Source: Candidatus Bathyarchaeota archaeon BA1
GTDB lineage: Archaea; Thermoproteota; Bathyarchaeia; Bathyarchaeales; Bathyarchaeaceae
Assembly (NCBI GenBank): GCA_001399805.1
Contig: LIHJ01000054.1
Span: 1,041-10,667 of the forward strand
Direction of reading: 5' to 3'
Length of the DNA: 9,627 nt
Shown one piece after another: positions 2,559 to 6,883 of this stretch; positions within the stretch are counted from its first letter, which is position 1; each line of letters opens with the position of its first letter. Under the pieces are notes generated by a model. The model was not told the origin of the DNA and made no database searches. It saw only the letters and a program-made list of their open reading frames with translations. Both the position numbers and the translations under genes were made by a program.

Positions 2559-3062
2559 CTACTTCTTAACCATTTTACGTTTTAGTACCTCTAATGCTCC
2601 ACCTGCCTCAATTATTTCAAGGAGGAAGTCAGGCAGTTTTGTTCCTTTATAAGTTTCTCCCTTAGAAATATTTTTGATATCGCCTAATGTTAGGTTCAAC
2701 TCAAGCCGCTGACCCTTATCCACCTTTTTTGAGATGTTTTTACATTCAAGGACTGGTAAACCAATGTTTATTGCATTTCTGAAGAAAATTCTTGCGAAGG
2801 ACTCCGCCACAATAGCGCCTACCTTTAAATGCTTAAGAAGCACAGCCGCGATTTCTCGACTTGATCCGCACCCAAAATTTTTGCCTGCAACTAGGATGTC
2901 TCCCGGCTTGACTTTCTTAGCAAACTCTGGGATGACTCCCTCAAGCACATGAGAAGCCATTGTGTCTGTGTCTTTAATTGTTAGGTGTGGACCAGCTATG
3001 ATCATATCTGTGTTTATGTCATCTCCAAGTTTCCAGGTTTCCCCTTTAATAATGAACTTCAA
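2559..3062 (-). CDS. leuD: 3-isopropylmalate dehydratase/homoaconitase family, small subunit
   Basis: This is the small (swivel-domain) subunit that closes over the active site of the large Fe-S subunit and provides substrate-recognition residues. The 167 residues match the 160-170 usual for archaeal LeuD/HacB. The N-terminus has GDDINTD at 13-19, then the specificity loop HLTI at 26-29, the conserved NFGCGSSRE at 62-70 and NAINIGLPV at 96-104. The loop position normally begins with tyrosine (YLRT or YLVY in the Methanocaldococcus enzymes as I recall them), so HLTI is unusual and leaves the substrate open among isopropylmalate, homoaconitate, citramalate-type and other acids. The start is TTG at 3062, preceded by GAGGTG with a 7-base spacer, just after the leuC stop. 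The stop is TAG at 2561-2559. The frame beyond that TAG runs without a stop into iorA, but the normal family length indicates genuine termination. It is co-transcribed with leuC. Confidence 0.9.
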   Translation of the reverse strand: MKFIIKGETWKLGDDINTDMIIAGPHLTIKDTDTMASHVLEGVIPEFAKKVKPGDILVAGKNFGCGSSREIAAVLLKHLKVGAIVAESFARIFFRNAINIGLPVLECKNISKKVDKGQRLELNLTLGDIKNISKGETYKGTKLPDFLLEIIEAGGALEVLKRKMVKK

Positions 3063-4873: not shown

Positions 4874-5173
4874 CTATGTAATATTATTAGAGCCTTTACT
4901 TTTCCGTCTTATGTAGATGGTTTTATACCTGCTGCAGTCAGCTAGGAGGCAGGCTTTACATGCTTCGCTAGCTTCGTTGAAGGAGACTGGTTCAAGGTGA
5001 ACCTCATAGCCGAGCGACTCGTAGAGCTCAACGGCCTCGCTTAAGCGGGGCTCATCCGTGGTGAACTGCCTCATCCATCCCCTTCGCTTTAACTCGTCCC
5101 CTTTAAGCCTATACCCAGGGCATTGTGAACCCAAAACTTTAACCTCATTTATGATTAGAGATAAGTTGCTCAT
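4874..5173 (-). CDS. Conserved-looking cysteine-bearing hypothetical protein, 99 aa
   Basis: I do not recognise a named family with confidence. The protein has a central segment, FTTDEPRLSEAVELYESLGY (37-56), that looks like a folded alpha/beta element, and then a cysteine cluster in EACKACLLADC (Cys72, Cys75, Cys80) followed by a strand and basic stretch, YKTIYIRRK. With Cys18 in SQCPGY there are four cysteines, enough for a zinc or iron site, but this is inference. There is no signal peptide or membrane segment, so it should be cytoplasmic. The start is ATG at 5173 and the stop is TAG at 4876-4874. No Shine-Dalgarno stands out; instead the ATG overlaps by four bases (ATGA) the TGA that would end the racemase frame if its internal TAG is read through. 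That points to translational coupling with the racemase gene. The basic, glycine- and asparagine-rich tail looks like a natural C-terminus. Confidence 0.75.
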   Translation of the reverse strand: MSNLSLIINEVKVLGSQCPGYRLKGDELKRRGWMRQFTTDEPRLSEAVELYESLGYEVHLEPVSFNEASEACKACLLADCSRYKTIYIRRKSKGSNNIT

Positions 5174-5286
5174 ATAGTTAGTAGTGGTCGTTTAGCGACT
5201 GATTGCAATCTTTTCATGGTGACGTAATAGGCATATAACCCCGCCGCTATCACAGGATCGATCACGAATGTGTTGAAATTTTCCTA
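5170..5286 (-). other. In-frame amber codon and 37-codon C-terminal extension of the racemase
   Basis: The racemase frame stops at TAG (5286-5284) and then continues in the same frame for 37 sense codons to TGA (5172-5170). The extension contains FVIDPVIAAGLYAYYV, which matches the strand-and-helix that normally follows the CTGYS loop in this racemase family (typically VIDPV followed by a small-residue helix). With the TAG decoded the protein would be 228 residues, a normal family length. The terminal TGA overlaps the ATG of the next gene as ATGA, a standard operon junction. The amber falls at a variable linker position, where Lys, Gln or Glu would be ordinary, so one base change (AAG, CAG or GAG to TAG) would explain it. 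Alternatives are pyrrolysine insertion, suppression, or a sequencing error. Confidence 0.7.
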
Positions 5287-5856
5287 CAGCTTGTCTGCTA
5301 TCCTAAGCGTTGAGTAGCCTGTGCACCCGAGAGCTAAAACGTCAATACTTTGATTCACTAATTTCTTAGCCGACTCAAAGATGGCGTTCACATTTTCAGC
5401 TAAGTCAAGTGTTGTTTTCACATTATAGGGTTTTTCATAGGCTACCAATTTCTCGCCCAGTACTTTAACCATGGGGTGGGGTGGAATATCGGTTATGCCT
5501 AGAACCCCTATGCGTCTGCCATACATCGATGCCAATGATGCGCAAGCTGAGCCGGCTCCAATAATTGGTACTTTTGTAGCTTCTCTTAGCTCGTTGACCC
5601 CCGGATCGTTGGCGCAACTAACTATGATGGCTTGAGCACCTTCATTTTCCAACGTTTTGCCCAAAGAAATGATCTTGGGAATGGCCTTTCTTTCAGATTC
5701 GAAATTATATAATCCCTTAGGGTGGCCCTTAATGCATTGAGATATCACCTTTAGCTCAGGGAACATATCTTCAACTATTCTTCCATGTAAGTTAAGGAGG
5801 GTTTTATCGGTCAATGTTACGACTCTAATTAGTCCAATTAGCGCTCCCAAATCCAT
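5284..5856 (-). CDS. Asp/Glu/hydantoin racemase family protein, interrupted by in-frame TAG
   Basis: This belongs to the cofactor-independent racemase superfamily, in which two cysteines act as acid/base pair on the alpha-carbon of amino acids or hydantoins. Relatives also include maleate isomerases and decarboxylases. The N-terminal GLIRVVTLTD (8-17) is the first strand. Cys81 lies in VSCANDPGV and Cys178 in LGCTGYS, both catalytic positions present. GAGSACASLA (100-109) and RRIGVLGITD (114-123) mark the domain junction. The product as terminated at TAG 5286-5284 has 190 residues and ends soon after the second catalytic loop, shorter than the roughly 220-240 usual for the family. The missing part is encoded in the same frame just beyond the TAG. 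ATG at 5856 lies one base after the stop of the upstream gene, with AGGTAGGTAG just before it. The substrate is unknown. The gene is either truncated and possibly inactive, or completed by decoding UAG. Confidence 0.85.
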   Translation of the reverse strand: MDLGALIGLIRVVTLTDKTLLNLHGRIVEDMFPELKVISQCIKGHPKGLYNFESERKAIPKIISLGKTLENEGAQAIIVSCANDPGVNELREATKVPIIGAGSACASLASMYGRRIGVLGITDIPPHPMVKVLGEKLVAYEKPYNVKTTLDLAENVNAIFESAKKLVNQSIDVLALGCTGYSTLRIADKL

Positions 5857-5857
5857 T

Positions 5858-6883
5858 CTACCTACCTTTTAGTTTCTGAGAGATTTCCACAAGCATTGGA
5901 TGAACATATTTCCCTTCCTCTTCGATAGGTTCCCGATCAAGCTGGATTGAGGGGTTAAGTATTATGCCATCGGTATGTGAAGGGGCGCGACCTGCCCTGC
6001 CCATGAAGTAGTCTGTTTGAGAGCCGATTCCCCACTCAATACAACCGAAAATTCTCTCGTCTTCTAGTATGTTCCCGGTCAGCCTCGCGCCTGGATTAAA
6101 GCCATATGACACATGAGCTAGGTTGTACATGCTTGGGTGCTCAAAGCTAGAAAGCCACGATTCTAGTATTCTGGCCTCAGCTTCGCCTCTGACTTCCACA
6201 ACTCTACCATTTTTAATCACGAGTTTAATCGGGCTTTTCAGTAGGCCTATCTCGTCTGGTGGCCATAAAGAACCGTCAAAGACGATTGCGCCGTTTATTG
6301 TTTCCTCAATGGGAGCCCAGGATATTTGACCGCCCAACATCGCCCTTTCTCCAGCCTTTTTAATTACTCCGCGATGATGGATGATTGGTCGCTCAGGGTC
6401 GTTCTTAAACGTTATATTGGTGCCTCCCGGACTCGTGATCTTTACTTCACTGGCTTTACACGTCAACTCGGTTAATCGATCCCCCAACTCAACTATTAGA
6501 GGATAATCAACTCTCCCTATGCATCTTATCATCATTTCTTTAGTTATCCCTGTAAGACATAGATGCCTAGCACCAGCCTTTAGTGCCTCATAATACGCAT
6601 TCGTATGTATGATATACATTTTAGCGAACTCACAGATCACATCAGCATTCTTCATGGCGGCAGCCACTGGTTTGGGGGGTTCCATATCAACTTCTGGCCT
6701 TGTTTCATACCATATGATTGTAGGGATTACTCCGGCCGTATAGCCAGCCGCCGCCACCGCATTAACTATATCTGGGTCCGTCGATGTATCGGCGTACAAT
6801 AGAAGATTTTCCCCGCTCCTCGCGCATAGGAGCTGCTTGATTAAAACATCTGCGGCTTTAGCAAGCTCCATCCATAAATACAT
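5858..6883 (-). CDS. M29 aminopeptidase / NicX-like metalloenzyme
   Basis: This 341-residue protein has the fold shared by M29 aminopeptidases (AmpS, aminopeptidase T) and the Fe(II) ring-cleaving 2,5-dihydroxypyridine dioxygenase NicX; archaeal copies are commonly labelled leucyl aminopeptidase. Conserved C-terminal elements are visible: NLAHVSYGFNPGAR (254-267, His257), GCIEWGIGSQ (280-289, Glu283) and SHTDGIILNP (302-311, His303 and Asp305). The His..His-x-Asp set matches the three iron ligands known for NicX, while M29 peptidases use a two-metal site with additional glutamates. The length is nearer NicX than the roughly 400 residues of bacterial M29 enzymes. It may therefore hydrolyse peptides or act on a ring or amide substrate; the sequence does not settle this. 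ATG 6883 is used here, with ATG four codons later possible. The stop is TAG, one base before the racemase ATG, so the two are surely in one operon. It is probably cytoplasmic. Confidence 0.85.
   Translation of the reverse strand: MYLWMELAKAADVLIKQLLCARSGENLLLYADTSTDPDIVNAVAAAGYTAGVIPTIIWYETRPEVDMEPPKPVAAAMKNADVICEFAKMYIIHTNAYYEALKAGARHLCLTGITKEMMIRCIGRVDYPLIVELGDRLTELTCKASEVKITSPGGTNITFKNDPERPIIHHRGVIKKAGERAMLGGQISWAPIEETINGAIVFDGSLWPPDEIGLLKSPIKLVIKNGRVVEVRGEAEARILESWLSSFEHPSMYNLAHVSYGFNPGARLTGNILEDERIFGCIEWGIGSQTDYFMGRAGRAPSHTDGIILNPSIQLDREPIEEEGKYVHPMLVEISQKLKGR

Follow-up and report, generated by a model that had tools for sequence, protein, structure and literature searches.

A probable recent nonsense codon in a hydantoin/Asp-Glu-type racemase gene of a Bathyarchaeia-related archaeon

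The methylamine methyltransferase genes MtmB, MtbB and MttB, like the racemase gene described here, contain an in-frame TAG that is followed by conserved coding sequence. According to the accessible text of PMC8211752, every methylamine methyltransferase gene of methanogens contains pyrrolysine, invariably at the active site; the racemase stop, in contrast, occurs in one sequence only and at a variable column. An in-frame UAG outside the methylamine genes, as in the racemase, is annotated for transposase and TetR genes of Methanosarcina acetivorans in the accessible part of PMC3639795, but these genes, unlike the racemase, belong to a known pyrrolysine organism. Young nonsense-interrupted genes, whether pseudogenes or strain variants, show the same single stop in an intact, conserved frame, and from these we found no difference. 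As for the protein itself, the hydantoin racemase of Pyrococcus horikoshii (PDB 2eq5) has the same fold (TM 0.89 over 213 columns, ∼50% identity) and is also matched by sequence, with a profile match across nearly the whole chain; the difference is the TAG of our gene, which at codon 191 precedes the final strand and helix. We propose that one recent in-frame nonsense codon very probably interrupts this gene, either as a real mutation or strain variant or as a base error. The features concerned, within the window (the whole stretch of DNA analyzed, 9,627 nucleotides), are as follows.

5858 to 6883, minus strand: upstream gene, 341 amino acids (aa), with a TAG stop one base upstream of the racemase ATG
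5284 to 5856, minus strand: interrupted racemase open reading frame, 190 codons and the TAG, containing C81 and C178, PF01177 score of 69.2 bits
5284 to 5286, minus strand: in-frame TAG, racemase codon 191; relatives (n = 25) have E 14, K 9, S 1 and R 1 in this column
5170 to 5283, minus strand: in-frame continuation, conserved family C-terminus VIDPVIAAGLYAYY, 37 codons plus TGA; contains the modeled strand 197-199 and helix 201-221
4874 to 5173, minus strand: downstream gene, conserved small Cys-containing protein of 99 aa, with TAG as its natural end
2559 to 3062, minus strand: LeuD-type small subunit, full-length family match, with TAG as its natural end

On the minus strand, the TAG at 5286-5284 is followed in the racemase frame by 37 sense codons (5283-5173) and then by a TGA (5172-5170) that overlaps the ATG (5173-5171) of the downstream gene, all as given in a preliminary description of this DNA. 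The frame is clean apart from the TAG, and its full read-through comes to 228 codons. That description had cautioned that an open run of 37 codons is not rare by chance, and we agree: since the chance of such a run is P ∼0.13 at the base composition of the window, it is no evidence by itself, or at best weak evidence, for a real coding tail. Its further claim that the tail resembles the normal C-terminus of the family was borne out. Against a C-terminal profile built from 25 relatives, with the window's own sequence left out, the tail scored 45.8 bits, compared with 8.3 bits for the best of 2,000 shuffled tails. Reading through the TAG likewise raised the PF01177 (Pfam) score from 69.2 bits for the 190 aa to 79.3 bits (cut-off 31) and carried the match on to profile position 207 of 211, from 189 without read-through, so that the single stop precedes the end of the conserved racemase domain. 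By sequence similarity above the curated cut-off, the gene is assigned to the Asp/Glu/hydantoin racemase family (PF01177), and it is split by the TAG, with its true C-terminus beyond it.

A homologue search returned 77 proteins, namely the window's own 190-aa product and 76 others of 212 to 258 aa, the closest being 74% identical. Whether relatives have a TAG at this codon, a check put forward in the preliminary description, was judged by protein length: all 76 others are 212 to 258 aa, none of them is short enough to stop at codon 191, and there is no other short form among them. We aligned the read-through product with 25 of the 76 (26 sequences in total). The homologues align across the TAG, all 25 relatives crossing the site without a gap there, and the TAG column is variable, mostly E/K (E 14, K 9, S 1, R 1). 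From a sense codon for E or for K, the most frequent residues here, TAG is one substitution away. C81 and C178, which we take to be catalytic, are invariant in 26/26 sequences and precede the stop; D200, P201, A204 and G206, also invariant in 26/26, lie beyond it. In the structure predicted for the read-through protein (mean pLDDT, 92.6), residue 191 falls within a helix (186-194) that is followed by a strand (197-199) and a further helix (201-221). The complete C-terminal strand and helix (197-221, beyond the stop) are therefore absent from the TAG-terminated product.

If the TAG is real, translation would halt at codon 190, and the resulting 190-aa product would lose the remainder of one helix, one strand and the terminal helix of 21 residues, which carries residues invariant in the family. 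Because this strand and helix would be missing, the product is probably unstable or inactive in the modeled fold, and a loss of function is suggested. One could suppose instead that the protein functions at 190 aa and that its tail is dispensable, as both conserved cysteines precede the stop. We consider this very improbable: the four invariant residues beyond the stop, the strand and long helix lost in the model, and the lack of any other short form among the homologues found all argue against it.

We further investigated whether the gene shows signs of decay, using the window sequence and 13 close relatives (P0003 to P0015, excluding P0016 and P0025 of alignment A2), with the tail defined as the 19 conserved columns that follow the TAG. 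Of the columns that are otherwise invariant, the window racemase breaks none of the 66 in the body and none of the 7 in the tail; among the 13 relatives, the counts are 0 to 9 and 0 to 1, respectively. The ratio of tail to body identity is 1.01 for the window and 0.89 to 1.10 for the relatives. The marks of an old pseudogene, relaxed constraint and more lesions, were thus not found in these 66 body and 7 tail columns. Since neither body nor tail has decayed, the interruption must be very recent, be read through, or be a base error. The lack of decay would be expected of a very young change and equally of active read-through, and we infer that the interruption is recent.

A base-calling or assembly error, the gene in the cell being intact with 228 codons, would account for a single faulty codon in an otherwise undecayed gene whose frame is otherwise clean. 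This is one of the two forms of the nonsense-codon reading, and the one we hold to be unlikely. The LeuC, LeuD, IorA and ABC-transporter genes of the window have no frameshift and give family matches at normal lengths. In addition, the protein cluster of the 190-aa product has 2 member sequences, and a protein 98% identical to the 99-aa neighbor (P0199) is encoded on another contig, a weak hint at a second assembly with the same short form, i.e., at a real change. Over an error we favor a real point mutation or a strain variant, which we consider reasonably likely.

We also looked at how TAG is used elsewhere in the window. Three of the nine complete genes of the window, the racemase left out, stop with TAG. 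The 341-aa upstream protein had no Pfam or NCBIfam match at 1e-3; it has a 49% identical homologue in genome G450, and both end 3 residues past the aligned stretch. In LeuD, the TIGR02087 match covers positions 1-156 of 157. LeuD and the IorA-like gene share a frame (2489-2561), in which the TAG of LeuD alone separates them and is followed by 23 sense codons up to the GTG of IorA, and read-through of this TAG would fuse the LeuD and IorA-like proteins. The 99-aa protein has 205 homologues, and none of the best 120 aligns past its stop; among the matches listed (120 of 205), the best coverage is 75% of the read-through query. Two of 13 aligned homologues run beyond the stop, in a manner unlike the window's continuation. 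These three gene-ending TAGs are thus natural stops, and TAG works as a stop here.

The start of the 99-aa gene is less clear than its end. The ATGA overlap with the racemase tail, which had been cited as an exact operon-style arrangement, is present in the sequence but weaker as evidence than claimed: 5 of the 13 homologues aligned begin 13 residues later, where the window has a TTG (5134-5132), and this TTG, rather than the overlapping ATG, may be the true start. The other 8 homologues start further upstream, including P0199, which is 98% identical and has the same ATG start. Upstream of the racemase, we observed that the G450 homologue of the 341-aa protein (L069, 3445-5244) is followed directly by another PF01177 racemase, and the pairing of the two families thus recurs in the window and in G450. 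The homologue of the 341-aa protein in G306 contains a TAG that was considered as an internal stop and rejected, as it is located at the end of the protein.

Ordinary read-through, programmed or by a suppressor tRNA carrying an ordinary amino acid, would yield some full-length protein and fits the undecayed tail. It is nevertheless the least probable reading, and we regard it as very improbable. No short relatives point to a conserved stop, and no structure follows the stop; a tRNA scan of the window found no tRNA gene, which says little. Read-through of archaeal stops is named for Sec and Pyl, and for no other residue, in the accessible text of PMC8211752.

The remaining reading is that this archaeon decodes the UAG at codon 191 as pyrrolysine through tRNA-Pyl and a pyl cassette not yet seen, at a position that tolerates change, giving a full-length racemase. 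We placed the window by its LeuC and its racemase matches. LeuC is 71% identical to a protein of Ca. Bathyarchaeota A05DMB-4 and 70% identical to that of the nearest genome, G306; because these values are about the same, the class of 256 genomes to which G306 belongs was taken to be Bathyarchaeia. By LeuC, the nearest of the 256 in score order are G306 (70%), G426 (64%), G422 (65%) and G539 (60%); IorA, at ≤46% identity, was a poorer marker. PylS was above the cut-off in 3 of the 256 genomes (G537, G445 and G542), G445 being of the same order as G306, so that at least one lies in the order of the nearest genome. PylD was above the cut-off in two of seven genomes tested (G537 and G542). A tRNA-Pyl was found near PylS in G537 and G542, and in G537 one MtmB match out of 12 contains a TAG (codon 197 of 451); these searches therefore detect the pyrrolysine system where it is present. 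Neither PylS nor PylD was above the cut-off in any of the four nearest genomes, which is soft evidence of absence, as the completeness of these genomes is not given. In print, PylSBCD is described for a Bathyarchaeia representative in the accessible text of PMC9723677.

In G445, PylS stands above the cut-off without a PylD above it, and two MtmB-family matches lack an internal stop. A tRNA scan of its loci L042 and L068, the only ones scanned, found no tRNA-Pyl, and within that coverage G445 has no evident pyrrolysine system. Reduced use of TAG as a stop is a mark of pyrrolysine-encoding genomes, although not a universal one. Among open reading frames of at least 100 codons, in only 80 to 160 kb of each of four genomes, TAG ended 25/105 in G445, 34/110 in G537 and 13/75 in G542, and 34/153 in G306, which has no PylS. 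TAG depletion was dropped as a test of pyrrolysine use, because the PylS genomes of the class show none (17 to 31% TAG in the stretches examined). For Sifarchaeia, the accessible text of PMC9723677 gives a TAG stop use of 21%. Since TAG is a common stop in PylS genomes too, the ordinary TAG stops of the window are compatible with pyrrolysine.

Beyond the PylS genomes of the class, the undecayed tail also fits pyrrolysine at codon 191. We nevertheless rate it very improbable, and the preliminary description's alternative of a UAG-encoded pyrrolysine is not supported, in view of the full-length homologues (none of the 76 others short enough to stop there), the neighboring TAGs that act as natural stops, the four nearest genomes without PylS or PylD over the cut-off, and the variable, mostly E/K column. 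Residue 191 lies in this column and within helix 186-194 of the model, and the UAG thus does not occupy a functional, active-site position. No stable hairpin follows the TAG (z, +0.77); such a hairpin is said not to be required for pyrrolysine in the accessible text of PMC9499178. The six PF01177 matches in nine genomes searched fall in four genomes and are all without an internal stop; one of the four (G542) is among the three PylS genomes, and its match is a distant one. We found no report of a pyrrolysine racemase in the literature, as judged by titles and the starts of abstracts among the matches listed.

The gene itself is patchily distributed. A racemase relative at 1e-40 is present in 3 of the 256 genomes of the class, with 40 to 50% identity, and once in the class of the best IorA genome (40 genomes); in a sample of the phylum, 11 of 398 genomes had a match at 1e-30, at most 52% identical. 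A contig search with alignment A2 gave 15 distant loci, none of them close (best identity, 48%). A contig search with the single protein and a search of viral contigs found nothing. A close relative (∼70% identity) is absent from the genomes searched. With so patchy a distribution, loss of the gene is plausible. A TAG in the racemase of L039 (G420) was rejected as a second case, as it terminates a protein of 218 aa, a length in the family's range.

Taken together, these data favor a recent nonsense change, because the true C-terminus lies beyond the stop, a single substitution suffices, the homologues are full length, the gene shows no decay, the neighboring TAGs are natural stops, the nearest genomes lack PylS and PylD over the cut-off and the gene is patchy. 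Of the alternatives first raised for this locus, the best fit is a new nonsense mutation or a base error. The hydantoin/Asp-Glu-type racemase gene of a Bathyarchaeia-related archaeon would thus have been hit by a single nonsense change, and one young change of this kind in an accessory gene is the most economical account. Few pyrrolysine cases are, to our knowledge, known in this lineage. Were codon 191 decoded as pyrrolysine after all, the racemase would be a pyrrolysine protein outside methylamine metabolism, and pyrrolysine use would extend to a racemase-family protein in this lineage. The locus cautions that, in an archaeon, conserved sequence behind an in-frame TAG does not on its own make a pyrrolysine site, even where some members of the class have PylS.
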